From positions 1-35,027 of the IMG/VR virus record IMGVR_UViG_3300013005_000098: a stretch of DNA of 35,027 bases, one strand, 5' to 3'. The position numbers and the translations under genes were made by a program. A model generated the notes under the pieces. It was given only the letters and a program-made list of their open reading frames with translations, was not told the origin of the DNA and did no database searches. Below, piece by piece: positions 1,701 to 30,347 of this stretch; the stretch's first letter is position 1, and each line of letters begins with the position of its first letter. The stretch is from a virus.

Positions 1701-3467
1701 ATGGCATTATCAATGGAGCAGGTAGCTGCACGCGTTCAAGCGCTACGCTATCGCAACAACGAGCGCGACCAGCGCAACCTTGACGTCCTTGCAGTTCGTA
1801 AGGGTAAAATTGCTGAAGTCTATCCTGACTTCTTCCCAGATGGAGTAGATGCCAATGTCGTGGCAAATTTTATTGACATTGTTGCCCGCGACCTATCCGA
1901 GGTTATGGCACCACTACCAGCCGTCAACTGTTCAGCAGCGAATCAAGTTAGCGACCGTGCCCGTACTTTCGCTGATAAGCGTACTCGTATTGCTTCGAAT
2001 TATTTTTCGAACTCTGACCTGGCTGTACAAATGTACTCGGGCGCAGACTGGTACATCACATATGGTTTCGTCCCATTCATAATTGAATTAGACGAAGAAG
2101 CAAAACTGCCACGTATTCGCGTAGAAAATCCAATAGGTGCTTATCCTGAGTTTGACCGCTACGGACGTTGTGTGGCATTTGCTAAGCGTTACATGATGAC
2201 ACTGGGCGAATTAGTAACTCAATTCCCTGAGTATGAAAGAGAACTGCTAGGTGGCTACGGCTACAAGCAAGACCTCAATCACCAGGTTGAGATGATTCGT
2301 TATTACGATAAAGACCAGTCACTCATCTACATCCCATCAAAGGGAGATTTAGTTCTTTCACGCGCTAAGAATCCTTTAGGAAAAATGATGGTTGTCTGCG
2401 CACGTAAACCATCCATTGATGGTGAACTACGTGGACAGTTTGATGATGTTCTAGGTATTCAATTGCTGCGCAATCGCTTTGCATTGCTTGCAATGGAAGC
2501 AGCAGAAAAATCTGTACAAGCTCCTATTGTACTTCCGCAAGATGTTCAAGAGCTACAACTTGGTGGAGATGCGGTTATCCGTACCTCTAACCCAGCAGGT
2601 GTACGTCGTGTAGAATTATCTATTCCACAAGGTGCGTTTACTGAACAACAAGTCTTAAACCAAGAACTTCGCGTTGGAACTCGTTATCCTGAATCGCGTA
2701 CAGGTAATGTTAGCGCATCAATTGTTACAGGTCAAGGCGTACAGGCTCTTATGGGAGCCTTTGATACACAAGTCAAGTCAGCACAAGCAATCTTTGCTGC
2801 TGCCCTTCGTGATGTAATCGGCCTTTGTTTTGAAGTTGATGAAGTTATTTATCCTGAAGAAAAGACCATTCGTGGTGTTGACTCAGGTTCTCCATACGAA
2901 ATTACCTACAAGCCAAATAAAGACATCAAGAAGGATTACTCCGCTGATGTTCGTTACGGTATGCTTGCTGGTCTTAACCCTGCACAGGGTCTTATATTTA
3001 TGTTACAGGCCTTAGGCGGCAAACTTATCTCCAAGGACATGGCGATGAGAGAACTACCATTTACTGTTAACGTAACACAAGAGTTGGAAAAGATTGAGAT
3101 TGAAGATATGCGTTCAGCACTTCTTGGGTCTCTTACGGCCTACACTCAAGCAATTCCACAGATGGCTACTCAAGGCCAGGATGCTTCTGAAGTAGTGCGT
3201 AAAATTGCGGCTGTGATTAAGGCACGCCAAAAGGGACAAGCACTTGAGGATGCGATAGAAGCAACCTTTGCCCCACAACCGCAACCAGTTCCTCCTGCTG
3301 GAGTACCACAAGCGGTTGAGCAAATGTCCCCTGCTCCCGAAGGTGCACCAGCAGGAGGCACTCCTCTTCCACCGCAAGAAGCACCACAAGATATTCAAAG
3401 TTTACTCTCTAGCCTGACTTCAGGCGGGGGAGCAAATGCAAGCGTTCGTACAGTACAGCGCAGATAA
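1701..3467 (+). CDS. Portal protein
   Basis: 588 residues, within the usual portal range. The portal forms the ring at one capsid vertex through which DNA enters and leaves, and it docks terminase. The N-terminal third has the typical start of podovirus-type portals (helix with ALRYRNNERDQRNLDVLAVRKGK, then a conserved VANFIDIVARDLSEVMAPLP segment), followed by a beta-rich wing, a long helical stretch around residues 330-420, and a C-terminal glutamine/proline-rich tail from about residue 525 (PQPQPVPPAG, APAGGTPLPP), likely disordered. Position right after terminase supports the call. The SD is AGGA before ATG. Assigned from sequence character and order, not from a search. Confidence 0.82.
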   Translation: MALSMEQVAARVQALRYRNNERDQRNLDVLAVRKGKIAEVYPDFFPDGVDANVVANFIDIVARDLSEVMAPLPAVNCSAANQVSDRARTFADKRTRIASNYFSNSDLAVQMYSGADWYITYGFVPFIIELDEEAKLPRIRVENPIGAYPEFDRYGRCVAFAKRYMMTLGELVTQFPEYERELLGGYGYKQDLNHQVEMIRYYDKDQSLIYIPSKGDLVLSRAKNPLGKMMVVCARKPSIDGELRGQFDDVLGIQLLRNRFALLAMEAAEKSVQAPIVLPQDVQELQLGGDAVIRTSNPAGVRRVELSIPQGAFTEQQVLNQELRVGTRYPESRTGNVSASIVTGQGVQALMGAFDTQVKSAQAIFAAALRDVIGLCFEVDEVIYPEEKTIRGVDSGSPYEITYKPNKDIKKDYSADVRYGMLAGLNPAQGLIFMLQALGGKLISKDMAMRELPFTVNVTQELEKIEIEDMRSALLGSLTAYTQAIPQMATQGQDASEVVRKIAAVIKARQKGQALEDAIEATFAPQPQPVPPAGVPQAVEQMSPAPEGAPAGGTPLPPQEAPQDIQSLLSSLTSGGGANASVRTVQRR

Positions 3468-3481
3468 ACTAGGAGGGGACA

Positions 3482-4027
3482 ATGACTACAATTATCGGCG
3501 TGCAAAGCACTGATGGTTGCACTATGGTCGCTGATAGCCTAGTAAGTGATGATACTGGTCGCACTTGGTCACATCCACAGATGACTAAAATAAATAAACG
3601 TGGAGAATTTTTAATTGGTGGAGCGGGCGAAGTTGCTCCGTGTGATATAGCACAACATGTTTGGGAACCACCAGTCCTAACTGTTAAAGATAAAAAAGAT
3701 GTTTATCATTTTATGATTACAAAGGCAATGCCTTCACTTCGTGAATGTTTAAAGACCAATGGATATAACTTTGATGAGCCACAGGATAAAGATTCTAGTT
3801 CTAGATTCCAATTCTTAATGGCTGTTAACGGTGAACTATTTGATATTGGTGATGATTTATCAGTAATGCGTAACGTTGATGGATTCTATGGTGTAGGTTC
3901 TGGTGCACAAATTGCACTAGGTGCCCTATATGCTGGAGCAGAAGCAATAAGAGCAGTAGAAATTGCTGCTCAATTAAGTATTTTTTCAGAAGGACCCTTT
4001 CAAGTAGAGGTTCAATATTCTAAGTAG
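3482..4027 (+). CDS. Proteasome-beta/HslV-like Ntn hydrolase, candidate head maturation protease
   Basis: 181 residues with the hallmarks of the proteasome beta/HslV N-terminal-nucleophile family. It begins M-T-T-I-I-G, so removal of Met would expose Thr as nucleophile. With that Thr as residue 1, Asp17 falls in the VADS motif, matching the family's conserved Asp17. A lysine follows in the MTKINKRG strand (family Lys33 region), then GGAGE, and a late GVGSGAQIALGALYAGAEA segment equivalent to the GSG-A-A-A helix. In the family the enzyme cleaves peptides inside a compartment. It lies between portal and the large virion proteins, where phages usually keep a prohead protease, and no other protease of that kind is visible. 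A strong SD (GGAGGGG) precedes the ATG. Role in head maturation is inference. Confidence 0.8.
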   Translation: MTTIIGVQSTDGCTMVADSLVSDDTGRTWSHPQMTKINKRGEFLIGGAGEVAPCDIAQHVWEPPVLTVKDKKDVYHFMITKAMPSLRECLKTNGYNFDEPQDKDSSSRFQFLMAVNGELFDIGDDLSVMRNVDGFYGVGSGAQIALGALYAGAEAIRAVEIAAQLSIFSEGPFQVEVQYSK

Positions 4028-4035
4028 GAGGAAAA

Positions 4036-4500
4036 ATGGCTGGAAATCAGAATAGTGGCGGTATGCGCCCAACTGCTCCACAGAATAATCCTGCTAATGT
4101 CTCAGCAACTGGCGGAAATGGACAAAGCGGACAAGGACAAGCCGCTCGATACATTCCAGGCTTGCCTTATGGGCAAGGACAGGCAACAATGCAGACACAA
4201 CAATCAGCAAAAATGTCTGCTGGACCACGTCCAAGTGCCACTACGGCACCTAAGCTTCCAGATGTAATGGGATTAACTGAACCAACTATGCGTCCAGAAG
4301 AGCCTGTCACTGCTGGCTTGACTCCTTATGGTCAACCAAACGACCCAACTGCTTTAGGACTTCCAGGTCAAATGCCAAATCAAGACCCTGACGTTGAAAT
4401 GGTTCGTCGTTTTTTTCCTGCAATGGAGTTCTGGGCTAGTCAACCTGGTGCATCTCAGGCCACTAAAGACTACATCGTGTATTTGCGAGGTACTCTGTGA
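4036..4500 (+). CDS. Low-complexity Asn/Gln/Pro/Gly-rich virion-type protein
   Basis: 154 residues. The first 100 are rich in Gln, Asn, Gly and Pro (for example GGNGQSGQGQAARYIPGLPYGQGQ) and likely disordered; the last 40 (MVRRFFPAMEFWASQPGASQATKDYIVYLRGTL) look like a folded helical end. An AGGAGG SD lies 5 bases before the ATG. The stop overlaps the GTG of the next gene (GTGA), suggesting translational coupling to the 1609-residue protein and a shared complex. Family not recognised; a virion linker or chaperone role is a guess. Confidence 0.7.
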   Translation: MAGNQNSGGMRPTAPQNNPANVSATGGNGQSGQGQAARYIPGLPYGQGQATMQTQQSAKMSAGPRPSATTAPKLPDVMGLTEPTMRPEEPVTAGLTPYGQPNDPTALGLPGQMPNQDPDVEMVRRFFPAMEFWASQPGASQATKDYIVYLRGTL

Positions 4501-7500
4501 GTGTTTGGGAATACCTAGGAAAGATTCAGCGTGAACTTGAAAAGAGACCTACACCCCAAAGAGCATCAACCAAATATTCAGTAAGCGACAAGGGTCAAGT
4601 TTCAACAAATGTGCAGCAAGCTGCCCCAATGCCTACCCCTTCAGCTGCTCCTGCGCCTATGAGTATTCAAGGCACCCCAACGTATGACCCAGGTTGGAAG
4701 AATCAGTTTGGCGTTACCTTTGATGCTGCCAAGAATCTACCATCTAACCCAGGTGGTTGGAACAATGAGGTTGAAACTCTAAGAAAAGTTGGAATCGATG
4801 TAGCAGATGCTACTATTGGAAAAGTAATTGAAAAAACTTTAGTTCCTGTAGATAACGCCACAGGCGGTGCGCTTTCTAAAGCACTTATGTACGGAACAAA
4901 TGAAGTTCGTTCTAACTATGCATTTACTAGAGATTTAGAAAACAGAACAACAGGCATGGGTCTTTTATCTGGCTTGCTAATGCTATCTGCTGGAGTCGGT
5001 GGCGGAATTCTAGGCGCTTTTGTTGGTGGACCTGTAGGTATATGGGCTGGCGCTACACTAGGTATAGCTGCTGCTGGACGTATTGGTAGAGAAGTATCTG
5101 AAACTGGTGTTCTTGGCAATGCATTTAAGACATCTGCTGAAGTAGCAACGACTAAAGCTGGTCAAGAGAAGTATAATTTTGGTCGAGATACAGTAACAAC
5201 CATCTCTGAGATTACTGGCTCTGAAACATTTGGTGATACCACTATGGGTATTGGTGCTATCACATCAGGTATCTTAAATTTTGGTTTTGAACTTGGAACA
5301 TCACCTGACATTGGTGCTGCTAAAGTAGCAGGTGCTGGTGTGCGTGGAGCACTTGTTGCTCCAATCAAGGAGACTGGCGGAAAGTTTAGTTCTAAACTTC
5401 TTGCTCCTGTGTTTGAAGCACAGACAGCAGCCCGTTTAGCTAAGGATGTAGACCTGCTTAAGCGCACTGGCGCTGGTGAAACAACCGTGTACACTCCAAT
5501 GTTTGAATTCTTTAAGAGTCATACTCCTGGTGAGTTAATTATGCGCAAAGGCTTTGACAATGAAGTCGGAATGTTTGCAGCTCAAGTACTTGCTGGTCAA
5601 TCAGATGAGGTAATCTCCCTAGCGCTACGCGCTGGACGTGGAGACTTAGACGCATTGGATACCCTTGCAGCATCACGTGCTGATATAGCAAATAATTTTA
5701 ACCGTCTTAATGATGGTATTCGCATGGGCGAAAAAGATGGTTTATACTTCGTAAAGTATGATGGCAAGACCCGCAATTTGGGCAAAGTCATGGGTGATTT
5801 GGACGAAACAGCCTGGGCACGTACTGAAGTAGAAGCGCTTCGTAAGCAGATTACTTGGTTAGATAACGCACTTGTCTTAGATAGTCGTCTAGCAGATAGA
5901 ACTGTTGGTAAATGGGCATGGGTAGAGCGTGCTCGTAATGATGCTGCTACTAGACGTATTGCTACTAAACTTGAAATGCCTTTAATGGGTAAGATGGAGA
6001 CCAAGGCTGGTAAAGCATTCCAGACTGTATACCAAAATGGTCCGTTAGGCATGTTTGTTCGCTTTATTGACCGAGGTATAGATGATATTCCTCGCAATAC
6101 AATTAACTTTAATGATGCTGTTCAAACACCTGAGCGTTTACGCACTAATCTTCGTGCATCTGTAGCAAAGTCTGGCTTAACGCCAGAACGTGCAGCAGAT
6201 ATCTATAATCGTTTTGTTTCAGCAACAAATGAATTAGAAAAACTAAAGGTTATTAATGAGTATACAGCAGAACTTGCACAAACTGTAGGGAAAAAGCATG
6301 GTGTTTCGCCAGATATTATTGAGCTTGTTCTTAAGACATGGGACAATGTTCATGGAACATGGATGTCTGAAGCACGCAATGCTAAAAACTTAAATGTTGG
6401 ATATATGTTTGGTCCTGGTGGAGTAGACGATATTCTTCATGACCCACAACTTATAACTCAGTTAGCAAATGGGGCATTTTTGCCAGACCCTAAGATGTGG
6501 GATAAAGCATTTGAACGTTACTCAAAGAAGCATGCAGCGCTACCTGGAGCAAAAGAGAATCTTGCCGTTAAAAGCAAGTATGTCTTAGATGAATTCCAAT
6601 CTTTATGGCGTGCTGGTACATTGCTTCGTGGTGGTTATCCACTTAATATTATCCGCGACTCAGCGGTTCGTGTCTATGGCGATGGCGCACTATTCCCATT
6701 GTTAATCAAGTTAACCCAAGATACCATTAACACACTTGCCAATAGTACACATACTACGGGTAAAATTAAAGATGCGTCGATTCGTTTAGCTAATCCAAAA
6801 AAGAATCTTGAGCGTATCTACTCAGACATTACTGACCGTGAGGCTACAATAGAAGCCCTGCAAAAAGTTCTTGAGGAATCAGGTTATAACCCTAAGAAAC
6901 CATCTAAGGAATTATCTGATTCACAAAAGTTCAACATTGCACAGTTAGATAATCTTAACAGAACGGTAAAAGAACTTCGTCGTCAGCAAGCCGCTCTAGT
7001 TGCTGGAAAGAAAACTAGAGTCGTAGCCCGCGACAAGATAGTTAACATTGATGGATATGATTTTCCAGCAGCATTTTCTGGACGCTTTGGTGACTTAAGC
7101 CGTCAGGCTTTAGTTCAGAAGGATGATATTCGCCGTGCTGTACAAGGTATCCGTGAGTTGGAGCTCGAGAATGTACGCCGCAGCCGCACTGGTGTTAGAA
7201 GCATCTTGCCTGGTGAGGACGAAGGATTACACTTAGCATCTTGGCAGCAAGCACTCCAAGACAAGATTGGCTTCGACCCTGTTGCTCGCCTAATTATGGA
7301 GGGCAAGACTCGTCAAGAAATTATTAAGTACCTTCGTAGTCCTGAAAGCAAAGACTATATGAGCCGTATGGGAGCAGAATCATTTGACGCCCCTAACCAA
7401 TACGAAAAGGTTCTTGCCGTAGTTGAACACTTTGCTCCTAGCAAGGAACTATACAAGCCAATTCTTAATGGTACTCTTGATGTTGATACATTGCGCAAAC

Positions 7501-9326
7501 TATATCCAAACATTGAAGAACGCCCACCAGTACTAAGTGACATGGTGAACGATATGTTAGGTCAAAGTGGAGCATATCGAAAGTTAACTAATCTTTATAA
7601 AGATGGTGTCGCTTGGCTATCAACTGCACCAACTAGTAAATTAATGTATTCTCCTTACTTTGCGGTCAAGTATGAAGAGAAACTTCAGTCTTTAGTATAT
7701 GTAGCTAACCTTCAAAAGCGTGTATTAAATGATTCTGATAAGGCAAACTTTGAAGCAGCGGCACGTGCCTATGGTATTCGTGAATATAAGAACAAGTTAA
7801 ACTCATTCCATCGTGACATGAATTACAATGGAATCTTTAACTATGTTCTAGCATTCTTCCCTGCTATTGTGGAGCAGTATCGTGCGTATGGTCGCATCTT
7901 CATGGAGCACCCTGATTTCCTTATTAAGGCAGCACAGATTTCATCTGTTCCAGAACGTTTAGGGGCAGAAGAAGAAGACCCATTTGGCAATAGATATGTG
8001 GAAGTTCCACTACCTATGCTTGGCGGAATTAAGGGTCGCATCAACTCTAACTGGTTTAATGTGTTCAATCCAACAGGCAATAGCCTTGTATCTGGTGGAC
8101 CATTGCTTACATCAAGTGTAAACTTATGGTCAAAACAGTTTAATGTTGAGAATAAATTTACGCAGTGGGCTCTGCCGTTTGGTACTCAAACTGGACTGAC
8201 TGGCATGGTTACCCCCAATACTGCACGTCGTTTAGCACAGGCAGCAAAGGCACAGTTACTTGAAAATGGTGACCAGTTTAACACTGACACCAATATGTTC
8301 TTGCGTCAGATTCGCTTTGATTATATCAATGCTAACCATAAAGAGCCAAGTGCTGATGAAGTTAATGGCATGACTTACGAGGCAAAAGAAAAAGCAACTG
8401 GACTTGCTTGGTTACGCTTCCTGTCATCCATCTCTCTACCAGCACAGCCACGTTATGTTACTGGCCTACAGGGATATGCTGATGAACTTCAAAGAATGAC
8501 ACAGGCAGACCCAATAAATGGCGAGGAAACATTCTTAAAGACATACCCTGATTATTTCCTACTTACAAGCAAGTTATCAGATTCAACCGCTGGCATCAGT
8601 CCTGATGCTACAGCCGTTGCCTTACTTAAGGATAATAAAGATACTTTAAATCGCATTGTTGCTAACATTGGAACAGATAACTTAAATGTTTTAGGTGCTG
8701 TATTTAATGATGAAAACTATGCGTTCTCTTCAGCGGCAAATGCATACTTACAGTCTACTGATATCCCAGGATATCCAGGCAAGAAGTTCAGAGATACCAA
8801 AGGCTTCTTAGAGGCAACCACAAAGTCAATTGTAGCCAAGGGCTGGAATGACTTTAGCAATCTTAAAGAGATTGTTCTTGATGAACTAACAAAGAGTGGC
8901 ATGAATCCTAACCGTGGATACGGTAAGAATATCTATGACCAATACATGGATAGCTTTATTCAAGGCCAAAAAGAAAAGAACAATATCTGGTATGAAGAGT
9001 ACTCGGCTGGGTATAGTGGTGGCTCCTCAAGCCGTCAAGCTGCTACAGTTAAAGCTCTTAGTATTGCTGCTAACACACCAAAGATGTGGAAAGAACTATC
9101 TAAGCAGCCACGCTGGGCCACAATTGTAGAGTATTTAAATTTCAGATATACAATATATGATGAGTTAACAAGAACTGGCACGTCACTTGAATCAATGCGT
9201 AATCGTAAGTTACGTGAAGATGCTGCTGACTATGTGTTGCTTCTACGTAAGCGCGACATCAACTTCGGCAAGTTCTATGATAGGTACTTTGATAATGATA
9301 AATTCGACTATGTCTACGGTGGGTAA
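4497..9326 (+). CDS. Very large (1609 aa) virion protein, candidate DNA-ejection/internal core protein
   Basis: 1609 residues, the largest product in the window. It starts at GTG inside the previous stop. After a proline-rich N terminus (residues about 40-60) there is a glycine-zipper-like hydrophobic stretch near residues 150-200 (SGLLMLSAGVGGGILGAF, then VGGPVGIWAGATLGIAAAG) that could insert into a membrane. The rest is mainly helical, with a charged coiled-coil-like region around residues 770-850 and an aromatic-rich segment (FNYVLAFFPAIVEQYRAYGRIF) near residue 1110. Size, glycine-zipper and position among head genes resemble internal virion proteins that podoviruses eject to span the envelope (as T7 gp15/gp16 do). 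I found no clear lytic, polymerase or protease motif. Function is inference; the gene itself is certain. Confidence 0.75.
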   Translation: MSVWEYLGKIQRELEKRPTPQRASTKYSVSDKGQVSTNVQQAAPMPTPSAAPAPMSIQGTPTYDPGWKNQFGVTFDAAKNLPSNPGGWNNEVETLRKVGIDVADATIGKVIEKTLVPVDNATGGALSKALMYGTNEVRSNYAFTRDLENRTTGMGLLSGLLMLSAGVGGGILGAFVGGPVGIWAGATLGIAAAGRIGREVSETGVLGNAFKTSAEVATTKAGQEKYNFGRDTVTTISEITGSETFGDTTMGIGAITSGILNFGFELGTSPDIGAAKVAGAGVRGALVAPIKETGGKFSSKLLAPVFEAQTAARLAKDVDLLKRTGAGETTVYTPMFEFFKSHTPGELIMRKGFDNEVGMFAAQVLAGQSDEVISLALRAGRGDLDALDTLAASRADIANNFNRLNDGIRMGEKDGLYFVKYDGKTRNLGKVMGDLDETAWARTEVEALRKQITWLDNALVLDSRLADRTVGKWAWVERARNDAATRRIATKLEMPLMGKMETKAGKAFQTVYQNGPLGMFVRFIDRGIDDIPRNTINFNDAVQTPERLRTNLRASVAKSGLTPERAADIYNRFVSATNELEKLKVINEYTAELAQTVGKKHGVSPDIIELVLKTWDNVHGTWMSEARNAKNLNVGYMFGPGGVDDILHDPQLITQLANGAFLPDPKMWDKAFERYSKKHAALPGAKENLAVKSKYVLDEFQSLWRAGTLLRGGYPLNIIRDSAVRVYGDGALFPLLIKLTQDTINTLANSTHTTGKIKDASIRLANPKKNLERIYSDITDREATIEALQKVLEESGYNPKKPSKELSDSQKFNIAQLDNLNRTVKELRRQQAALVAGKKTRVVARDKIVNIDGYDFPAAFSGRFGDLSRQALVQKDDIRRAVQGIRELELENVRRSRTGVRSILPGEDEGLHLASWQQALQDKIGFDPVARLIMEGKTRQEIIKYLRSPESKDYMSRMGAESFDAPNQYEKVLAVVEHFAPSKELYKPILNGTLDVDTLRKLYPNIEERPPVLSDMVNDMLGQSGAYRKLTNLYKDGVAWLSTAPTSKLMYSPYFAVKYEEKLQSLVYVANLQKRVLNDSDKANFEAAARAYGIREYKNKLNSFHRDMNYNGIFNYVLAFFPAIVEQYRAYGRIFMEHPDFLIKAAQISSVPERLGAEEEDPFGNRYVEVPLPMLGGIKGRINSNWFNVFNPTGNSLVSGGPLLTSSVNLWSKQFNVENKFTQWALPFGTQTGLTGMVTPNTARRLAQAAKAQLLENGDQFNTDTNMFLRQIRFDYINANHKEPSADEVNGMTYEAKEKATGLAWLRFLSSISLPAQPRYVTGLQGYADELQRMTQADPINGEETFLKTYPDYFLLTSKLSDSTAGISPDATAVALLKDNKDTLNRIVANIGTDNLNVLGAVFNDENYAFSSAANAYLQSTDIPGYPGKKFRDTKGFLEATTKSIVAKGWNDFSNLKEIVLDELTKSGMNPNRGYGKNIYDQYMDSFIQGQKEKNNIWYEEYSAGYSGGSSSRQAATVKALSIAANTPKMWKELSKQPRWATIVEYLNFRYTIYDELTRTGTSLESMRNRKLREDAADYVLLLRKRDINFGKFYDRYFDNDKFDYVYGG

Positions 9327-13012: not shown

Positions 13013-13492
13013 ATGAGCAACAACTACTGGGATGAAGACGAAGACGACCTAGATACCGATACCATTACTGGTAACGAAAGCGGAAGTGACCTCTTAAAGA
13101 AGTTACGGAAGGCTAAACGTGCCGATGAGAAACGTATCAAAGAACTCACTGAGCAACTTGAGGGATTCTCCAAGGTGCAGCGTGAGCGTACAGTCAAAGA
13201 AATCCTAGAACAAAAGGGTGTTAATCCTAAAGCAGCGAGACTAGTTCTGAAAGATTTAGACGAAGTTAGCGAAGAGTCAGTTAATACCTGGCTTGAAGAT
13301 AATGGAGACTTGTTTGGAATGTCTATTGCTAAGGATGCACCAAATGCTAACGAGTATGACCGTGCCGCATTGCGGCAGCAGGATGCCGTTACGCAAGGTG
13401 CAATAACACCTGACCGAGCAGAAAACTTAGAACAACGATTAGGCGCTGCGGAATCCGCAGAAGAAATCTTATCTATTCTTCGCTCACAATAA
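13013..13492 (+). CDS. Scaffold-like protein
   Basis: 159 residues from the ATG at 13013; the longer in-frame version from 12977 would use a non-ATG codon and is less likely, since GAAGGGTGG sits at a usable distance before 13013. The N terminus is very acidic (NNYWDEDEDDLDTDT), followed by a charged coiled coil at residues 27-65 (LLKKLRKAKRADEKRIKELTEQLEG) and a helical C terminus (ENLEQRLGAAESAEEILSILRSQ). Acidic, coiled-coil-rich and immediately upstream of the capsid gene, it matches head scaffolding proteins by character and place. Scaffolds fill and shape the procapsid and are removed, often by a phage protease such as the candidate at 3482. Confidence 0.7.
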   Translation: MSNNYWDEDEDDLDTDTITGNESGSDLLKKLRKAKRADEKRIKELTEQLEGFSKVQRERTVKEILEQKGVNPKAARLVLKDLDEVSEESVNTWLEDNGDLFGMSIAKDAPNANEYDRAALRQQDAVTQGAITPDRAENLEQRLGAAESAEEILSILRSQ

Positions 13493-13528: not shown

Positions 13529-14476
13529 ATGGCCTACGTATCAACAGCATCCGATTCACTCGGAGGCACCGCTGGTGCAGCAGGTTTAGTTCAGAAGGCG
13601 TATGACCGTCTTTTGGAGTTTGCTCTCCGTTCAGAACCACTTATTCGTTCTGTCGCAGACAAGCGCCCAACTAACCAATCAATTCCTGGTTCAACAGTCG
13701 TTCTACAACGCTACGTTGACCTAGCAGCAGCAACAACTGCGCTAACAGAAACAACAGACCCAGATGCAGTAGCAATGTCTACACCAACATCAGTTACAAT
13801 TACTCTTAACGAGTACGGTAACTCTGTTCTTGTAACACGCGCTTTGGAACTATTCAGCCTTGCTGATGTAGACCCAGCGATTGCTAACATCATCGCATTC
13901 AACCTAGCCGATTCAATCGACGCAGTTGCAATGACAACACTTCGTGGTGGTTCAAACGTGATTTACTCAGGTTCAACCGCTACATCAACAGCAACAGTTA
14001 CTGCTGCTGCAACACTATCTTCTGCTAACATCCGTAAGGCTGTTGCTAAGTTACGTGCTAACAAGACAACCGCTCGCAAGGGCTCACTATACTGGGCTGG
14101 TATCCACCCAGAAGTTTCACACGACCTTCGTGCAGAAACAGGCTCAGCAGGTTGGTTGCTTCCAAATCAGTACGGTTCTGCACAAGACCGTATCTGGGCT
14201 GGAGAAATCGGTACATACGAAGGTGCATACTTCGTAGAGTCACCACGTCTTTACTCAGCAACTGATGGTGCTTCATCTGCAAAGGTGTACCGCACTATCC
14301 TAGCAGGACAGCAAGCAATGGCAGAAGCCGTTGCTGAAGAACCACACGTAGTCATCGGTCCAGTAGTGGACAAGTTGATGCGTCACCGCCCAATGGGTTG
14401 GTACGGAGTTCTTGGTTTCGCTCGCTACCGCGAAGAAGCCCTGTACCGCATTGAGTCAGGTTCATCAATCGCTTAG
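13529..14476 (+). CDS. Major capsid protein, N4-gp56-like HK97 fold
   Basis: 315 residues. The sequence has the layout of the N4-gp56 family of major capsid proteins: an N-terminal helical stretch (YDRLLEFALRSEPLIRSVADK), a strand block (STVVLQRYVDLAAATTALTETTDPD), a VTITLNEYGNSVLVTRALELFSLADVDP segment, a long helix INIIAFNLADSIDA-type, the ANIRKAVAKLRAN helix, and a C-terminal PMGWYGVLGFARYREEALYRI segment. HK97-fold subunits build the icosahedral shell. A scaffold-like gene precedes it and the best SD in the window drives it. No N-terminal delta domain is obvious; if there is proteolytic maturation it may act on the scaffold only. Confidence 0.87.
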   Translation: MAYVSTASDSLGGTAGAAGLVQKAYDRLLEFALRSEPLIRSVADKRPTNQSIPGSTVVLQRYVDLAAATTALTETTDPDAVAMSTPTSVTITLNEYGNSVLVTRALELFSLADVDPAIANIIAFNLADSIDAVAMTTLRGGSNVIYSGSTATSTATVTAAATLSSANIRKAVAKLRANKTTARKGSLYWAGIHPEVSHDLRAETGSAGWLLPNQYGSAQDRIWAGEIGTYEGAYFVESPRLYSATDGASSAKVYRTILAGQQAMAEAVAEEPHVVIGPVVDKLMRHRPMGWYGVLGFARYREEALYRIESGSSIA

Positions 14477-15809: not shown

Positions 15810-15827
15810 CTAAAAAAGGTGGGGACA

Positions 15828-16556
15828 ATGCAAGAAACAATCTCGGTCGCCTGGTGCGACAATGGTATGGTAGATGGTAAGTTCATGCAAGGTGTTACAG
15901 ATGTTCTCCTTAAGTCTGGAGTAGAGTTTAAGTCAACTCTTCGCAGCCAAGGAAATCAGATTGCTCGTCAGCGTGAGACAGTAATTAACTATTGGTTTGA
16001 TAAGACTGATACTGAGTGGTTACTGTGGGTTGACTCAGATGTAGTTATCAGTCCAGATAAGTTCAAGTTACTTTGGGACAATAAAGATGCCCAGAAGCGA
16101 CCAATCCTAACTGGTATCTACTTCACTACTGATACACCAGAAGAACCATTGATGATTCCAATGCCTACAGCATTTGAGTTCGTAGATGATGAAAATGGTG
16201 GCTTTGGTCTGAAGAGAGTTCATCCACTGCCAGAGAACCAACTGATTCAGATTGGTGCTGCTGGTATGGGATTTGTTCTCATGCACCGAAGTGTAGTTGA
16301 AAAGATTCGCAAAGAATTGCCAGATGCACAACTGTTCATGGAAATGGGCAGAGGCACTAAGTTTATTGGAGAAGACATTTACTTCTTCGCTTTATGCGAA
16401 AAGGTAGGAGTCCCACTCTGGTGTCACACAGGTGCAACCGTTCCTCATATGAAACGATTCTCATTTGATGAGCATTACTACAAGGCATTCTTTGGAGCAC
16501 CAAAAGAAGAAAAGAAGTCTAACTTAGTACTTCCGAAACGATATACGAAAGGTTAA
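15828..16556 (+). CDS. GT-A fold glycosyltransferase-like protein
   Basis: 242 residues from the ATG at 15828; a GTG nine bases upstream is in frame, but it lies inside the AAGGTGGGG SD. The N-terminal half has a GT-A (family 2-like) pattern: an initial strand (ISVAWCDNG), a QIARQRETVINYWFD helix, and the metal/nucleotide-sugar DxD motif in WLLWVDSDVVISPD (residues 69-71). Later motifs are GAAGMGFVLMHRSVVEKI and KFIGEDIYFFALCEKVGVPLW, where the ED pair is a typical acid of the acceptor site. It would transfer a sugar from a nucleotide-sugar. Placement among head and neck genes suggests it may decorate a virion protein; DNA or host-envelope glycosylation is also possible. Confidence 0.75.
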   Translation: MQETISVAWCDNGMVDGKFMQGVTDVLLKSGVEFKSTLRSQGNQIARQRETVINYWFDKTDTEWLLWVDSDVVISPDKFKLLWDNKDAQKRPILTGIYFTTDTPEEPLMIPMPTAFEFVDDENGGFGLKRVHPLPENQLIQIGAAGMGFVLMHRSVVEKIRKELPDAQLFMEMGRGTKFIGEDIYFFALCEKVGVPLWCHTGATVPHMKRFSFDEHYYKAFFGAPKEEKKSNLVLPKRYTKG

Positions 16557-17770: not shown

Positions 17771-20287
17771 ATGACAACTAGAAAATACTCGTCCCGCTCA
17801 CAGCAAACTACCCTCAGTGGTGCTTTGACTTCTAGCGCAACAACAACAACTGTTGTATCAGGTTCGGCTCTTGTTGGTGGTGTAACCATCTCAGCAGGCG
17901 AACTCTTTACAGTTGTCATCGACCCAGATACAGCCCTTGAAGAAATTGTAGATGTCAGTGCCATCTCTGGCAATACACTTACAATTGTTCGTGGCATTGA
18001 TGGCTCAACTGGTGTAGCCCACTCTGCTGGTGCTATTGTTCGGCATATGGCAATTGGTCGTGATTACCGCGAAGCCAATACCCACATCGAGGCAACAACA
18101 GGACACGGCGCTACTGGCGCTGTAGTTGGTACAACCAACACTCAAACTTTAACTAACAAGACTTTAACTAGCCCAACCATTACTGGCACTGGTGCTATCG
18201 CAGGAACCTTTACTGGTAACTTGACAGGTAACGTAACTGGAACTGTATCTGGTAATGCTGGCACAGTAACTAACGGTGTCTATACAACCGACACAGGCAC
18301 AGTCACTTCTACAATGACTGCTGATGGCACTATTGTAAATGCTGATATTAATGCTAGTGCTGCAATTGACAAGACCAAAATTAGTGGAACTGCTGTAACT
18401 GTAGCCGATACTGGCACAGTGACAAGCACAATGATTCTTGATGGCACTATCCTTAATGCTGACATTAATGCATCAGCAGCCATTGATAAGACAAAGATTT
18501 CAGGTACTGCTGTCACCGCTGGTGATACAGGTACTGTTACTAGCACAATGATTGCTAACGATACAATCGTTAATGCAGATATTAACTCTGCCGCAGCAAT
18601 TGCTTACAGCAAGTTAAACCTTGCTGGTTCTATTACCTCATCAGATATTGTAGACGCAACTATAGTTAACGCTGACATATCAGCAACTGCTGCTATTGCT
18701 AAGACTAAGTTAGACCTTGGTGGAACAATTACATCTGCTGACTTAGTTGATGGAACTATTGTTAACTCAGACATTAATGCTTCTGCTGCTATTGCTCTTA
18801 GCAAGTTGGCGACCGACCCACTGGCTCGCGCTAATCACACTGGTACACAGACAGCATCTACTATCTCAGACTTTGACACACAGGTTCGTACTTCTAAGGT
18901 GACTGACCTTGCCGCACCTACTGGTTCATTCTCAATGAATAGTCAGAAGATTACATCTCTTGCTACACCAACTACAGGCACAGATGCTTCTACTAAGGAT
19001 TATGTAGATGCTCAGATTACTGCTCTTGTTGGTGGTGCCCCAGGCACACTTGATACTCTTAAAGAAATTGCTGATGCAATCTCTAGCGGTGGTTCATTTG
19101 AATCAACAGTAGTGCTTAAGTCTGGTTCAACTATGACTGGTGCTCTCACCTTGTCAGGTGCTCCAACTGTTGACCTACACGCTGCTACTAAAGCGTATGT
19201 AGATACCGTTGCTGGTTCTGCCACTGCCGCTGCAGCAAGTGCAACTGCTGCTGCTGCTTCATATGATTCTTTTGATGACCGTTACTTAGGTGCTAAGTCA
19301 TCTGCTCCATCTGTAGACAATGACGGCAACACTCTTGGTGTTGGCGCTATCTACTGGAACTCAGTAACCAACCAGATGTTTGCTTGGACAGGTTCTGCGT
19401 GGGGTTCTATTTCGTCAACTGCAGACATCTATCGCTTCCGCTTTACGGCAGCAGGTGGAGAAACTTCTGAGTCAGGTATTGATGATAATGGTTTAACTCT
19501 TGCCTACATTCCTGGTAAGGAGCAAGTATATCTAAACGGTGTATTGCTATCTCGCACATCAGATTATGTTGCTACTAACGGAACTTCTATTGCTTCTTTA
19601 GCAGCATTAACTTCTGGAGATATTCTAGAAGTTATTACCTTCACAGCATTTGAACTAGCAGACTCAATTGCTCGTTCATTGTTTGACACTAAGGGTGACA
19701 TTCTTGTCGCTACATCTGCTGACACACCAGGCAAAATTACTGTTGGAACAGATGGACAATATTTACAGGCTGACTCAAGCACTGCTACTGGACTTACTTG
19801 GTCAACAGTATCTGGCTACTCAGCCCCAACACTAGGCTCAACATCTATTGCATCAGGTGCTACTGTTTCAAATGTTGCTGGGTTGACTATTAACTCAACT
19901 ACAATTCCAACAAGCAAGACTCTTGTTGATACAGATTCTAGCCAGACATTAACTAATAAAACTTTAACTGGTCCAGTAATAAATTTAGTAACTAGCGCAC
20001 AAACTGCTTCATACACATTAGTTCTTGCAGATTCAAGTGATTTAGTTGAAATATCTAATGCTTCGGCAAACAACTTAACAGTTCCATTAAACTCATCAGT
20101 TGCATTTCCAGTAGGTACTCAAATCAATATTCTTCAAACTGGCGCTGGACAAACAACAATTGTAGCAACTGGTGGAGTTACAATTAACGGAACTCCTGGA
20201 CTTAAACTAAGAGCACAATGGTCAGCAGCAACTTTAATTAAACGTGCTACTGATACTTGGGTTGCTGTTGGCGATTTGAGCGCGTAA
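17771..20287 (+). CDS. Tail fibre protein with tandem repeats
   Basis: 838 residues, rich in Thr/Ser/Ala/Gly. Residues 1-100 form an attachment domain resembling part of the neck protein (LVGGVTISAGELFTVV, IVRGIDGSTGVAHSAG). A shaft follows: TLTNKTLTSPTITG, then three near-identical 39-residue repeats (starting near bases 18290, 18407 and 18524; core TSTM..DGTI.NADINASAAIDKTKISGTAVT), then about three shorter 32-residue repeats (TIVNADI.A.AAIA..KL). After that come KDYVDAQI and KAYVDTVAG, typical of phage fibre shafts. The C-terminal 110 residues (PVGTQINILQTGAGQTTIVATGG region) are paralogous to the 176-residue protein at 21443. Fibres bind host surface glycans or proteins. The stop overlaps the next ATG (TAATG). 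Confidence 0.85.
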   Translation: MTTRKYSSRSQQTTLSGALTSSATTTTVVSGSALVGGVTISAGELFTVVIDPDTALEEIVDVSAISGNTLTIVRGIDGSTGVAHSAGAIVRHMAIGRDYREANTHIEATTGHGATGAVVGTTNTQTLTNKTLTSPTITGTGAIAGTFTGNLTGNVTGTVSGNAGTVTNGVYTTDTGTVTSTMTADGTIVNADINASAAIDKTKISGTAVTVADTGTVTSTMILDGTILNADINASAAIDKTKISGTAVTAGDTGTVTSTMIANDTIVNADINSAAAIAYSKLNLAGSITSSDIVDATIVNADISATAAIAKTKLDLGGTITSADLVDGTIVNSDINASAAIALSKLATDPLARANHTGTQTASTISDFDTQVRTSKVTDLAAPTGSFSMNSQKITSLATPTTGTDASTKDYVDAQITALVGGAPGTLDTLKEIADAISSGGSFESTVVLKSGSTMTGALTLSGAPTVDLHAATKAYVDTVAGSATAAAASATAAAASYDSFDDRYLGAKSSAPSVDNDGNTLGVGAIYWNSVTNQMFAWTGSAWGSISSTADIYRFRFTAAGGETSESGIDDNGLTLAYIPGKEQVYLNGVLLSRTSDYVATNGTSIASLAALTSGDILEVITFTAFELADSIARSLFDTKGDILVATSADTPGKITVGTDGQYLQADSSTATGLTWSTVSGYSAPTLGSTSIASGATVSNVAGLTINSTTIPTSKTLVDTDSSQTLTNKTLTGPVINLVTSAQTASYTLVLADSSDLVEISNASANNLTVPLNSSVAFPVGTQINILQTGAGQTTIVATGGVTINGTPGLKLRAQWSAATLIKRATDTWVAVGDLSA
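18290..18640 (+). repeat. Three tandem 117-bp (39-residue) in-frame repeats in the fibre
   Basis: Three copies begin at about 18290, 18407 and 18524. Protein identity is very high while the DNA has diverged at many third positions, so the repeat is kept at protein level. A shorter 96-bp (32-residue) repeat continues to about 18810. Confidence 0.75.
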
Positions 20288-21384
20288 TGTCAATACTAGG
20301 AATCTTTGCTTCTGAAAATGGTGGATTGCCTACTGCTCCTACAATTGGTACAGCAACATCAGGTAACGCAAGTGCCACTGTAACTTATACAGCATCTACT
20401 TATACTGGTAAAGGTGCTGCTACTTACACAGCAACCTCGTCTCCTGGTGGGCTTACTGGCACTGGCGCTTCGCCAATTACGGTATCTGGTTTAACTAATG
20501 GAACTGCTTATACTTTTACAGTTAAGGCAACTTCTACAAGTGGTCAGACATCTGCTAATTCAGCAGCGTCTAACAGCATTACGCCTTCAAGCAAGGCTTC
20601 AACTGTTGAATACCTAGTTATTGCTGGTGGTGGCGGTTCTACTGGAACTAACGGTGGCAACGGCGCTGGTGGAGGTGGTGGAGCAGGTGGTTATAGAACT
20701 GCTACTGGACTTGCCGTTACAACAGGAGTTGCTTACACAGTAACTATTGGTGGCGGTGGAGCAGGTGGTGGCACTGAAGGCAGTAATGGTCAAAACTCTG
20801 TATTCTCTAGCATAACTTCTACTGGTGGTGGTACTGGAAGAGGCTACTCAAATTTCAGCAATGCTGATGGTGGCTGTGGTGGTGGTGGTGGTTTGCGTGA
20901 TGGTTTTGGTACAACTGCAACCCGCCCTGCTGGAACTGGTAGCCAAGGCGGTAATGGTGGTGCGGCAACATCATTGGGCGCAGGTGCAGGTGGAGCAGGC
21001 GGCGGCGGTGGCGGTGCAAGTGCTAACGGTACTGCGGCATCTGGATTAACTTCTGGCGCGGGTGGTGCGGGAAGTTCATCTTCTATTGATGGAAGCGCAA
21101 CAGTTCGCGCAGGCGGCGGCGGTGGTATAAATAGCAATGGTGGTAGCCCTGGCGCTGGTGGTTCTGGCGGTGGTGGTAGCAATGGCAGTAATGGCACTAC
21201 TAATACTGGTAGTGGCGGTGGTGCTGCAAGTGCCACAGGCGGTAACGGTGGTTCAGGTATTGTAATTATTAGATACCCAGATACTCTTGATGCTGCTGCA
21301 TCTACAACTGGTTCACCTACTGTTACAACTGGTGGTGGGTATCGTGTTTACAAATGGACTGGAAGCGGGAGTATCACTTTCTAA
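20287..21384 (+). CDS. Glycine-rich tail adhesin with FN3-like domain
   Basis: 365 residues from the ATG overlapping the fibre stop; the in-frame start at 20257 lies inside the fibre gene. Residues about 14-105 look like a fibronectin type III domain (APTIGTATSGNASATVTYTAS, ITVSGLTNGTAYTFTVKATS). Then comes the start of a glycine-rich domain (VEYLVIAGGGGSTG) leading to about 200 residues of GG-X runs (GGNGAGGGGGAGGYR, VTIGGGGAGGGTEG), ending in SGIVIIRYP. This matches the Gly_rich domain of phage tail tips, which can form bundles of polyglycine-II helices, as in gp38-type adhesins, and set host range. The final 30 residues (GGGYRVYKWTGSGSITF) form a short beta end. Confidence 0.8.
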   Translation: MSILGIFASENGGLPTAPTIGTATSGNASATVTYTASTYTGKGAATYTATSSPGGLTGTGASPITVSGLTNGTAYTFTVKATSTSGQTSANSAASNSITPSSKASTVEYLVIAGGGGSTGTNGGNGAGGGGGAGGYRTATGLAVTTGVAYTVTIGGGGAGGGTEGSNGQNSVFSSITSTGGGTGRGYSNFSNADGGCGGGGGLRDGFGTTATRPAGTGSQGGNGGAATSLGAGAGGAGGGGGGASANGTAASGLTSGAGGAGSSSSIDGSATVRAGGGGGINSNGGSPGAGGSGGGGSNGSNGTTNTGSGGGAASATGGNGGSGIVIIRYPDTLDAAASTTGSPTVTTGGGYRVYKWTGSGSITF

Positions 21385-21442: not shown

Positions 21443-21973
21443 ATGACTAAAGCCCGTGACATAGCAAATGTTGGAACTACCCTAGCAACTGTATCTACTA
21501 CAGAGTTAGGCTATCTTGATGGCGTAACTTCTGCTATTCAAACTCAAATTAATACTAAGGCTGCTGATTCAGGCAATGCAACTCAGGCTGGTACAGAAAC
21601 CCTTACTAATAAAACTTTGACTTCGCCAACTATCAACGACCCTAAGTTAAACTTAACTCTTAATGCTCAGACAGGAACAACATATACATTTGTTCTTGCT
21701 GACAATGGTAAGTTAGTTACAGCATCTAATGCTTCTGCTCAGACTTACTCTATTCCAACTAACGCATCTGTTGCGTTCCCAGTTGGAACACAGATTAACT
21801 TAATTCAGATTGGTGCTGGTCAGGTTACAGTTTCAGCAACAACACCTGGCACAACGACTGTTCTTTCAAATGGTGCAACTGCAGCAGGTCCAAAGTGTCG
21901 TGGTCAATACTCATCTTTGACAGCAATTAAAGTCGCAACAGATTCTTGGTATGTGGTAGGAGATATTGCCTGA
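21443..21973 (+). CDS. Short fibre-like protein, paralogue of the fibre C terminus
   Basis: 176 residues. The start (MTKARDIANVGTTLATVSTTELGYLDGVTSAIQTQI) is a familiar phage fibre anchor segment. Then TLTNKTLTSPTIND, and a C-terminal beta domain (TYTFVLADNGKLVTASNASAQTYSIP, PVGTQINLIQIGAGQVTVSA, KVATDSWYVVGDIA). This aligns along its length with the last 110 residues of the 838-residue fibre (LADSSDLVEISNASANNLTVP, PVGTQINILQTGAGQTTIVA, RATDTWVAVGDLSA). It lacks the long shaft. The stop overlaps the ATG of the second glycine-rich protein (TGATG). The domain may cap the fibre and carry the adhesin. Confidence 0.8.
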   Translation: MTKARDIANVGTTLATVSTTELGYLDGVTSAIQTQINTKAADSGNATQAGTETLTNKTLTSPTINDPKLNLTLNAQTGTTYTFVLADNGKLVTASNASAQTYSIPTNASVAFPVGTQINLIQIGAGQVTVSATTPGTTTVLSNGATAAGPKCRGQYSSLTAIKVATDSWYVVGDIA

Positions 21974-22857
21974 TGCCTATTCTTGGAACTATTGTTTCTA
22001 GTATTCAAAAATCTAAAGCATTCTCTGCTACTGGTGGAACAACCGTTACAAGCGGTGGTTTCAAATATCACACCTTTACTGCAAGCGGAACTTTTGCCGT
22101 AACAGGTTCTAAGACTGTTGAAGTCTTAGTTGTTGCAGGTGGTGGCGGTGGTGGAAAATTCCAGAACGGCGGCGGCGGCGCTGGTGGAGTTTGTTACCAT
22201 TCTGGCAAATCAGTAACTACAAATAATTACACAGTAACTGTTGGCGGTGGTGGCACAGGTGCAATAGATGCTTCAATTGGTTCAAATGGTAGCAACTCGG
22301 TTATGGATACTATTACTGCTAATGGTGGTGGTCGAGGTGGTAACCGTTCGGCAGGTGAGAACAACAGTTCTGCTGGTGGCTCTGGTGGTGGCGGTGGTTA
22401 CGGTGGTGGTACTACTACAAACGGTGGCGCTGGAAACCAAGGTGCAAGTGGCGGAGCAACTGGTTATGGCAATGCTGGCGGTAATGGTTACTTCAATGAG
22501 TTTGTTGGTGGTGGAATGGCAGGTGGCGGTGGCGCGGGTGCGGCAGGTGCCACAGCAACCACTATGAATGGAACTGCTGGTGGTATTGGATTAAATACTT
22601 GGAGTACTTGGGCAACTGCAACTTCAACTGGCGCTAGTGGATACTACGCTGGTGGTGGCGGTGCTGGCGCTAATGGAACTGGTGCTGGTCAAGCAGGTGG
22701 CACAGGTGGTGGTGGCACAGGTGGTGGAACAAGTGCATCGGTTGCTGGTACTACAAACACAGGTGGTGGCGGTGGTGGTGGTGGAAACTCTGGTGGTTCT
22801 AACCAAAACGGTGCAACTGGTGGTTCAGGAATTGTAATTGTTAGATACGCGGCTTAA
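21973..22857 (+). CDS. Second glycine-rich tail adhesin
   Basis: 294 residues from the ATG overlapping the previous stop. It starts like its paralogue (MPILGTIVSS versus MSILGIFASE) but has no FN3-like domain; instead a short beta segment (TSGGFKYHTFTASGTFAVTGSKTVEVLVVAGGGGGG) leads into about 200 residues of glycine-rich repeats (GGGGAGGVCYHSGKSV, VTVGGGGTGAID, GGGGAGANGTGAGQAGG), ending in SGIVIVRYAA, the same end motif as in the first copy. Low-complexity stretches on the opposite strand are shadows of these repeats. Likely a tail-tip adhesin that determines receptor specificity. Confidence 0.8.
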   Translation: MPILGTIVSSIQKSKAFSATGGTTVTSGGFKYHTFTASGTFAVTGSKTVEVLVVAGGGGGGKFQNGGGGAGGVCYHSGKSVTTNNYTVTVGGGGTGAIDASIGSNGSNSVMDTITANGGGRGGNRSAGENNSSAGGSGGGGGYGGGTTTNGGAGNQGASGGATGYGNAGGNGYFNEFVGGGMAGGGGAGAAGATATTMNGTAGGIGLNTWSTWATATSTGASGYYAGGGGAGANGTGAGQAGGTGGGGTGGGTSASVAGTTNTGGGGGGGGNSGGSNQNGATGGSGIVIVRYAA

Positions 22858-26468: not shown

Positions 26469-26493
26469 GTGAGACTTACGGGATTGGTAACAC

Positions 26494-26522
26494 TTGACAT
26501 GACTATGACGGTATGTTATACT
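26494..26522 (+). promoter_or_regulatory. Rightward consensus promoter of the early operon
   Basis: TTGACA (26494-26499), 17 bases, TATACT (26517-26522), essentially a perfect sigma70/sigmaA-type promoter. The next ATG begins at 26529, 7 bases from the end of the -10 box, so transcription would start at or next to the A of the ATG: a leaderless mRNA, a common form in Actinobacteria. No SD is present before this ATG, which agrees. Confidence 0.8.
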
Positions 26523-26528
26523 CAAGAT

Positions 26529-26720
26529 ATGAGCATAAAACTTGATGGATATACATTACCAGAGCACGTATCGTACTCAGCATTCACGACATACATTGAC
26601 TGCGGGTATCAGTACTACCTAGGCCGACTGCTCATGAAGGAGGAACTTCCTTCCGTCTGGTCGGTTGGTGGGTCTGCATTCCACCTTGCTTGTGAGAACT
26701 ATGACAAGGGGACAATGTGA
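26529..26720 (+). CDS. RecB/Cas4-like nuclease, N-terminal part (separate reading frame)
   Basis: 63 residues from the leaderless ATG at 26529; an in-frame start at 26469 lies upstream of the promoter and is rejected. It has the N-terminal signature of the RecB/AddB/Cas4 nuclease clan: VSYSAFTTYIDCGYQYYLG, with the first iron-sulphur cysteine (Cys25), and VGGSAFHLACENY with the catalytic-site histidine (His52). The rest of the domain is in the next gene, one frame back, beginning at a GTG that overlaps this TGA (ATGTGA). The two products complement each other, so they may assemble, or a -1 shift at AAGGGGAC may fuse them. Not active alone on present knowledge. Confidence 0.72.
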   Translation: MSIKLDGYTLPEHVSYSAFTTYIDCGYQYYLGRLLMKEELPSVWSVGGSAFHLACENYDKGTM

Positions 26721-27328
26721 TAAACGCTAAACAACTATGGGACCAAGCATGGCTTGAGTCCAAGGGTGACATAGACTTGACCAACGCACGAACTGGTGGT
26801 CGAGCTACTAAGGCTAACCCTAACAAAGAAGACGTTCCATTCTGGAATGAGACTGGTCCTCGTTGGGTCCAGGCTTACATCGAATGGCGCGACGCTAACC
26901 CAACTTGGAAAATCTGGACTACTCCACAAGGAGCTCCTGCTATAGAGTTGGCTATGCTACCTCAGTTCGCTGGCGTGCCAGTCAAGATGATTCTTGACAG
27001 AGTGTTTGAAGTTAACGGTGAGTTGGTCATCGTAGACTTGAAAACCTCTCAGCAAACACCTTCCAATACACTACAGCTTGGATTCTACAAGGTCGGTCTT
27101 AAGAAGACCTTTGGTATCGATGTTAAGTGGGGGACATATTGGATGTCACGCCAGTCTGGGGTATCTCCGTTAGTAGACCTAAGTATGTACACCGAAGATA
27201 GAATCGAATACCTAGTTTCAGGTTTTGATAAGGCTCGCAAGGCTGGCATCTTCTTGCCTAATGCTAACAATTGCCAATACAAATGTGGGTTGACAGCGCA
27301 CTGTCAGTTCTCTACAAAGATAGGATAA
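26717..27328 (+). CDS. RecB/Cas4-like PD-(D/E)XK nuclease, catalytic and Fe-S part
   Basis: 203 residues, GTG start overlapping the preceding stop. It carries the metal-binding core Asp94 (ILDRVFEV) - 12 residues - Asp107-Leu-Lys109 (VIVDLKTSQ), the helix with LQLGFYKVGL (QxxxY motif), and three clustered cysteines Cys186, Cys190, Cys196 (NCQYKCGLTAHC), which with Cys25 of the first product would complete the four-cysteine iron-sulphur site of the AddB/Cas4 type. Family members are DNA exonucleases or process ends in recombination. Phages use them in replication-linked recombination. A stop lies upstream in this frame near 26700, so it is not simply a longer single gene. Confidence 0.82.
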   Translation: MINAKQLWDQAWLESKGDIDLTNARTGGRATKANPNKEDVPFWNETGPRWVQAYIEWRDANPTWKIWTTPQGAPAIELAMLPQFAGVPVKMILDRVFEVNGELVIVDLKTSQQTPSNTLQLGFYKVGLKKTFGIDVKWGTYWMSRQSGVSPLVDLSMYTEDRIEYLVSGFDKARKAGIFLPNANNCQYKCGLTAHCQFSTKIG

Positions 27329-29640: not shown

Positions 29641-29998
29641 AAAATCACACAAGGCAAGGGGAGCAACATATGAAACACAACTACGAGATTATTTTAGACG
29701 AAATGGATATGACGCTGAGAGACTTGCAAGAACAGGCAAGCGAGATGAAGGCGATGTTGCAATCAGAGCTGACTTCCTTGGCTCCGTTGGTGTCATCGAA
29801 GCCAAAGCTCCAGGTCAATCAGGTCGCATTGACCTCTCTGGTTGGACGAAAGAGGCTCAACTTGAAGCAACTCATTATGCGGAAGCAAGAGGCATCGACA
29901 GAGAAGCTGTGTTGCCAGCAGTCATCATCAAAGCTAGAGGGAAATCGGTGGAAGATTCGTACTTAGTATTTAGATTGGGTGATGTCTTTGGAAAATGA
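29630..29998 (+). CDS. Holliday junction resolvase-like PD-(D/E)XK nuclease
   Basis: 122 residues. It has the Hjc/Hjr-type plan: KARGATYETQLRDYFRRNGYDAERLARTGKRDEGDVAIRADFLGSVGVIEAKAPGQ, with Glu15, Asp42 (GD), Glu57 and Lys59 (EAK) as metal and catalytic residues. Resolvases cut branched DNA before packaging and after recombination. It overlaps the methyltransferase 3' end and its own 3' end overlaps the primase gene. Other PD-(D/E)XK phage endonucleases remain possible. Confidence 0.75.
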   Translation: MTTRKSHKARGATYETQLRDYFRRNGYDAERLARTGKRDEGDVAIRADFLGSVGVIEAKAPGQSGRIDLSGWTKEAQLEATHYAEARGIDREAVLPAVIIKARGKSVEDSYLVFRLGDVFGK

Positions 29999-30347
29999 TA
30001 TGCCTTCGGTCAAGTCGGTGCTCGAACACTACGGTGCAGAGATACGACGTGACCACGGGCAGGTCAATCTTAAGTGTCCCTTTCATGGGGACACACACCA
30101 ATCAGGTACAGCAAACTTAGATGACAATGTATTCTATTGCTTTGCTTGTGGCATAGGTGGCAATAGTTTACAACTAATATCAAAGCAGGAAGGGGTGGAT
30201 ATACGTGGCGCAAAGAGATTCGCAGAAGGAATTACTGGGGTTAGCTACGCGGAAGTACGCGGAAAACATTTATCAGGCAGAAGATTACCTCAGAAGTCGG
30301 GGAATTACAATGGAAGTAGCGCGACTAGCAAGATTAGGCGTCGTTAG
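29982..30347 (+). CDS. DNA primase, CHC2 zinc-binding part (separate reading frame)
   Basis: 121 residues from the ATG at 29982; a GTG directly before it (29979) and an ATG at 30000 (MPSVKSVLEHYG) are alternative starts, the latter just after the upstream stop. The zinc motif is LKCPFHGDTHQSGTANLDDNVFYCFACGIGG: Cys-x2-His then Cys-x2-Cys, as in DnaG-type primases. It ends in KSGNYNGSSATSKIRRR, a poorly structured tail. The TOPRIM catalytic part starts inside it in another frame (30205). The two together would make a complete primase. Confidence 0.78.
   Translation: MSLENDMPSVKSVLEHYGAEIRRDHGQVNLKCPFHGDTHQSGTANLDDNVFYCFACGIGGNSLQLISKQEGVDIRGAKRFAEGITGVSYAEVRGKHLSGRRLPQKSGNYNGSSATSKIRRR

Follow-up and report, generated by a model that had tools for sequence, protein, structure and literature searches.

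Does a phage that encodes a proteasome-like subunit between its portal gene and its virion genes use it to mature the head, or does the subunit act elsewhere? The question is raised by a stretch of viral DNA of 35,027 nucleotides, the whole of which is called the window here. From its letters, the preliminary description proposed that the product of one ORF is an Ntn hydrolase (hereafter Ntn) serving as the head maturation protease, with an action on host proteins as the alternative.

The Ntn hydrolase and its known relatives

The following features of the window are referred to below.

1701..3467, + strand: portal protein, bounding the cassette slot on the left (PHROG 104, E=2.6e-30; Pfam SPP1_portal)
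3471..3480, + strand: strong RBS of the Ntn gene, aggagggga (from the sequence)
3482..4027, + strand: proteasome-beta/HslV/BPH-type Ntn hydrolase, 181 aa, predicted threonine peptidase (profiles, fold, active site)
4036..4500, + strand: g6, PHROG 8200 protein, right border of the slot
4497..9326, + strand: large internal virion or ejection-type protein (IVP), 1609 aa (PHROG 10618; matches Streptomyces podoviruses in size and position)
13013..13492, + strand: scaffold-like protein whose conserved start, MSNNYW, lies at 13013 (PHROG 7813; matches to scaffolds are weak)
13529..14476, + strand: major capsid protein (MCP), N4-gp56 family (TIGR04387, 129.6 bits, cut-off 60; PHROG 1357)

The PHROG and Pfam matches confirmed that Ntn is flanked by the portal gene and by virion-type genes downstream, as first described. 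The ORF begins with an ATG 14 nt after the portal stop codon, its protein starts with MTTIIGVQ, and its own stop codon is overlapped by the RBS of g6. Because no promoter or terminator patterns were found on the + strand around the gene, Ntn probably shares its transcript with the late genes. Of 38 ORFs compared across the window, it has the lowest GC content (0.386) and GC3 (0.209); its GC content is also lower than that of the portal gene in 98% of relatives, with a mean gap of 5.6 points.

Profile searches and structure prediction confirmed, far beyond chance, that the ORF encodes a proteasome-beta/HslV/BPH-type Ntn hydrolase. The HMM search that had been suggested as a check matched an HslV-type phage family, PHROG 1040 ("peptidase HslV family"), over residues 1-178 (E=2.3e-29). 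In a phmmer search of the PDB with the single Ntn sequence, the BPH structure 5ovu was the best relative (E=3e-5), and a profile of 52 homologues matched BPH at E=1.5e-12 and HslV at E=1e-9. The Pfam Proteasome model remained below its threshold (12.8 bits, cut-off 22.4), and among the NCBIfam models the curated HslV family gave no match, with just a weak hit to archaeal proteasome-beta (15.5 bits). AlphaFold2 supplied with 52 diverse homologues returned a model with a pLDDT of 93.8; a model from a shallow alignment of 21 close homologues (pLDDT 40) was discarded. With Foldseek, the best solved structures were those of BPH (E ~1e-11, TM 0.68-0.75), followed by HslV, and the best predicted viral fold was a phage protein named HslV, A0A6J7XBU4 (TM 0.88). 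The beta-sandwich core is present in the model together with the flanking helices H1-H4, which are predicted at residues 51-60, 74-92, 142-150 and 155-165.

The active site could be assigned residue by residue. After Met removal, Thr1 corresponds to T2, Asp17 to D18 and the catalytic Lys to K36, which is mature position 35 owing to a two-residue insertion relative to Lys33; the GSG motif occupies residues 139-141. None of the 161 unique phage homologues departs from M1, T2, D18 or K36, and in an alignment spanning 21-100% identity there are only nine invariant columns, including these four, G139 and G141. D18 and K36 align with D17 and the catalytic Lys of BPH, and T2 stands at the position of the family nucleophile. 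The elements listed in the preliminary description, namely a 181-residue ORF, an MTT start, Asp17, a Lys near 33 and the GSG motif, were thus all found again in the sequence and alignment. The median dN/dS between close homologues was 0.057 (1,524 pairs). Judged from these sequence comparisons, Ntn catalysis is under strong purifying selection, and positive selection inside Ntn alleles was ruled out by the dN/dS of ~0.06.

Phage proteasome homologues named PPH, AAH and CPH were described by Fuchs, Alva and Lupas in 2021, with function unknown and an uninformative genomic context (PMC8665760). Like them, Ntn is phage-borne, has the Thr1/Asp17/Lys33 site and has no recognized partner unfoldase, and the N-terminal position of its Thr nucleophile after Met removal, its Asp/Lys alignment and its core fold place it in group I, the HslV/BPH-related group. 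PPH comprises ~140 residues and is missing helix H2 (criteria of PMC8665760), whereas Ntn has 181 aa and a helix at 74-92, which excludes PPH identity. AAH was not found in actinobacterial phages (PMC8665760), whereas the present lineage has relatives among the Streptomyces phages and encodes WhiB. Connectase identity was also excluded: connectase is missing the first helix pair and has a two-helix insertion between S3 and S4, whereas the predicted Ntn model has H1/H2 and no such insertion.

By both sequence profile and fold, the closest solved structure is BPH (PDB 5ovs, 5ovu), from which Ntn differs in being a phage gene with ~25% identity to it. The 16-residue loop that follows H2 in Ntn (NGYNFDEPQDKDSSSR) recalls the elongated, highly acidic pore loop of BPH; it contains several acidic residues but is less acidic than that of BPH (in the family, acidic residues of the H2-S7 loop outnumber basic ones by a median of 2). 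With HslV (ClpQ), Ntn shares the fold, the active site and the MTT start, but its pore loop is longer (PMC5777263), and no HslU partner was recognized when the ORFs of the window, which is short by an estimated 4-5 kb, were scanned against PHROGs and Pfam. Ntn matches PHROG 1040 over its whole length and, like the phage proteins of that family (A0A6J7XBU4, VpV262 ORF47), is encoded by a lone gene with no recognized HslU; however, members such as VpV262 ORF47 lie outside the structural operon, whereas Ntn of the window lies in the late operon after the portal. Scans of bacterial genomes with the patterns used found no homologue of Ntn.

Head maturation

A gene that adjoins the portal gene in the late operon, keeps a conserved catalytic site and belongs to a genome lacking S14, S49 and S78 proteases is a natural candidate for cleaving scaffold, MCP or portal during prohead maturation. 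The lack of such proteases was borne out, as profiles detected none in the window or in full-length relatives (for S78, ClpP and S49, no match in the window or in 11 relatives, both Ntn-plus and Ntn-minus). A prohead protease just upstream of the window, which would have been an alternative source, finds no counterpart in the longer relatives (39-41 kb), in which nothing resembling a known prohead protease was detected. Ntn resembles prohead proteases (S14 ClpP, S49, S78, T4 gp21) in neighborhood only, and the folds differ. In the open-access literature searched, we found no paper describing a prohead protease of the proteasome or HslV type.

The head itself argues against this role. The MCP belongs to the N4-gp56 family and no propeptide is visible at its N-terminus; for this type of head, the assumption that this position should contain a prohead protease fails. 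Cultured Streptomyces podoviruses of the Beephvirinae share the N4-gp56-type capsid, the scaffold and the gene order with the window, at identities of 42-44% for the portal and 52-55% for the MCP. The Ntn profile detected no copy in four Beephvirinae genomes and a single-sequence search none in the others, and the annotation of the two Beephvirinae genomes whose head region was read includes no capsid protease. One member of the group, phage Abafar, forms infectious podovirus-shaped particles (PMC11536984).

Ntn is also naturally dispensable among closer relatives, which are metagenomic contigs classed as linear. Among the matches listed that have enough downstream sequence, 10 of 121 portal loci are without Ntn, with portals 86-90% identical to that of the window; some loci share one contig or come from near-identical phages and are not independent. 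Ntn is present in ~92% of the relatives sampled, a sample that leans to close relatives since the portal search comprises the best 80 loci. Three Ntn-minus records, 39.9, 37.5 and 30.5 kb long, gave no match to the Ntn profile at any position, whereas the same profile detected the gene in all eight Ntn-plus records tested as a control. The MCP of one Ntn-minus relative (L097) is 97.5% identical to that of the window and has an identical N-terminus. More generally, the N-terminus of the MCP does not differ between Ntn-plus and Ntn-minus relatives, and the scaffold-like protein is common to both. A host-encoded or unrecognized substitute may be present in the Ntn-minus phages, which are represented by metagenomic contigs.

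Outside this lineage, homologues of Ntn are located away from the head module. Homologues 62-66% identical to Ntn occur in unrelated phages, one of them on the opposite strand beside genes for RecT, a methyltransferase and an exonuclease, with WhiB and SSB nearby, and another adjoining an endolysin gene. More distant homologues lie in non-structural regions. In Microbacterium phage Lifes, in Arthrobacter phage Pitbull, where it is gene 77, and in Psychrobacter phage D'Alembert, an Ntn gene lies away from the head genes, and each of these phages encodes a separate capsid or head maturation protease in addition. In Lifes, the annotated start of the corresponding "protease" (gene 14) seems to be placed too far downstream: homology begins ~39 nt upstream (L036 4297-4336), and the annotated start omits the N-terminal stretch with the catalytic Thr.

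Natural absence, the heads of Beephvirinae, the other genomic contexts, the coexistence with dedicated proteases and the allele exchange set out below all speak against head maturation by Ntn, which we now consider extremely improbable. With it goes the hypothesis of a proteasome-type head maturase, which is attractive but very probably wrong.

The slot between portal and g6

Ntn varies independently of the head genes. Across 116 non-redundant portal-adjacent loci, the identities of Ntn and portal are only loosely related (Pearson 0.34), and Ntn is less than 50% identical in 45 of the 448 pairs whose portals are at least 90% identical. Where the portals of two phages are 92-97% identical, their Ntn alleles can be just 30-35% identical; in L106/L120 the portals are 96.8% and the Ntn proteins 35.4% identical, and in L132/L164 the values are 95.2% and 34.4%. 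In many such pairs, DNA similarity is lost no more than ~40 nt from the Ntn start codon and returns near the stop codon or at g6, while in other pairs the homology break lies further out or the right-hand match was not found. The reverse case also occurs, as in L016/L019, where Ntn is 98.9% and the portal 87.3% identical. An exchange of alleles 30-35% identical beside nearly unchanged portals is not what would be expected of a protein that recognizes cleavage sites in conserved head proteins.

These comparisons of related genomes indicate that Ntn is a single-gene cassette between portal and g6 that passes between phages and may drop out altogether. What is new here is this exchange slot, the Ntn protein itself being of an already known kind, and no description of the slot was found in the open-access literature searched.

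The slot was never observed empty. A small ORF of 73-86 aa with an acidic C-terminus lies between portal and g6 in every one of the 10 slots without Ntn and in 56 of the 156 with it, counts that pool two sequence types through iterative search and come from loci that are not independent (examples are L097 4886-5146, L124 5217-5447 and L118 12325-12579).

The neighbors of the slot bear on two further explanations, in both of which Ntn would be tied to virion proteins other than the capsid. In 780 pairs from 40 loci, the identity of Ntn showed no correlation with that of portal, g6 or IVP (Spearman 0.02, 0.09 and 0.05, respectively), and co-adaptation of Ntn with the internal virion proteins was ruled out by this lack of correlation. 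That Ntn processes IVP or g6 is suggested by gene neighborhood only, and with neither identity tracking that of Ntn and the g6 gene kept in Ntn-minus relatives, we judge it very unlikely. Alternatively, Ntn might be packaged with the internal virion proteins, ejected, and act early on host proteins. Such a virion-borne peptidase would reconcile late synthesis with early action, and the gene directly precedes the ejection-type genes g6 and IVP in the late operon; however, its alleles assort independently of both, and homologues elsewhere are unlinked to virion genes, which leaves this explanation unlikely, though worth keeping in view.

The region downstream of the slot is itself variable. The segment 4036-12891, which contains g6, IVP, a LysM protein and g10, is far more divergent among relatives than portal, scaffold and MCP. 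IVP varies strongly, with a median pairwise identity of 25% among relatives.

Probable function in the host cell and other features of the genome

The explanation that we regard as probable is that Ntn is an accessory, late-made and slot-exchanged threonine peptidase, acting most likely on host proteins and not on the head. The alternative named in the preliminary description, action on host proteins, is the best fit, with the substrates themselves being our inference. Removal of Met1 would free Thr2 as the nucleophile, which Asp18 and Lys36 would activate for the cleavage of peptide bonds. Like those of BPH and HslV, the subunits would probably assemble into a homo-oligomeric ring whose active sites face inward. 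Produced together with the late genes as an accessory enzyme, Ntn would most likely work in the host cytoplasm without a phage unfoldase; for BPH, too, no partner unfoldase is known (PMC5777263). Its presumed host substrates could be linked to host shut-off, protein turnover or counter-defense. Constant catalytic residues combined with the exchange of whole alleles would fit adaptation to different hosts.

Several points weigh against this host-directed, accessory peptidase. A position in the late operon is unusual for an early host-takeover gene unless the product acts late or is packaged, and presence in ~92% of relatives is high for a dispensable gene. Moreover, assays with standard substrates revealed no activity of BPH, the nearest solved relative, even though its Thr1 is bound by epoxomicin (PMC5777263). 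This lack of activity, and the presence of both amidases and a ligase, connectase, in the Ntn clan (PMC8665760), would also suit an activity other than that of a general peptidase, such as a specific amidase, a deacylase or a connectase-like peptide ligase. However, in the predicted fold H1/H2 and the rest of the core are all retained and the S3/S4 insertion characteristic of connectase is missing, and the nearest structures are peptidases; we consider a different activity of this kind improbable.

If Ntn is a host-directed peptidase, a more specific proposal can be put forward tentatively, and we would sooner doubt it than accept it. The slot may be a dedicated exchange site, at which alleles as little as ~30% identical, all with intact Thr/Asp/Lys, are swapped among phages that are otherwise nearly identical because each is matched to host-specific substrates, plausibly defense proteins or regulators. 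If host-matched exchange is true, phage proteasome-like enzymes would be counter-defense or host-takeover peptidases. Phage proteasome homologues are widespread and their function is unknown, and the slot offers a way in. It provides a natural experiment in the form of near-identical phages with Ntn, without it, or with very different alleles, and under the host-directed reading a comparison of hosts and alleles could reveal the substrates.

The host in question is likely actinobacterial, because the window encodes a WhiB-type transcription factor (33995-34327, - strand; Pfam 37.7 bits, cut-off 23.6) and an L5-gp49-like protein, and because the nearest cultured relatives of the phage infect Streptomyces; this assignment draws on gene content and relatedness. 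The large terminase gene (TerL, 1-1086) is truncated at the left edge of the window, its frame being open from base 1. Since TerL runs off this edge and relatives measure 39-41 kb, the window appears to be a fragment of a ~39-41 kb genome from which ~4-5 kb is missing.

Some further features of the window were observed. An exonuclease (PHROG 1870) extends over two ORFs, 26469-26720 and 26717-27328, which overlap by 4 nt; its counterpart in Streptomyces phage Dennebes is one ORF annotated as a Cas4 exonuclease, and the division may be genuine or may stem from a frameshift or a mistake in the assembly. The primase is likewise encoded in two ORFs, 29979-30347 and 30205-30831, which overlap by 143 nt in different frames and hold the zinc-binding part and the TOPRIM part. 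Dennebes has an identical arrangement of this overlapping pair, and a programmed frameshift is possible. A long protein rich in repeats resembling NADINASAAIDKTKISGTAVT is encoded at 17771-20287, followed by two glycine-rich proteins at 20257-21384 and 21946-22857; the three are probably tail fiber or decoration proteins. Finally, a glycosyltransferase-like gene (15819-16556; PHROG 34859, E=8e-81) is located within the block of structural genes.
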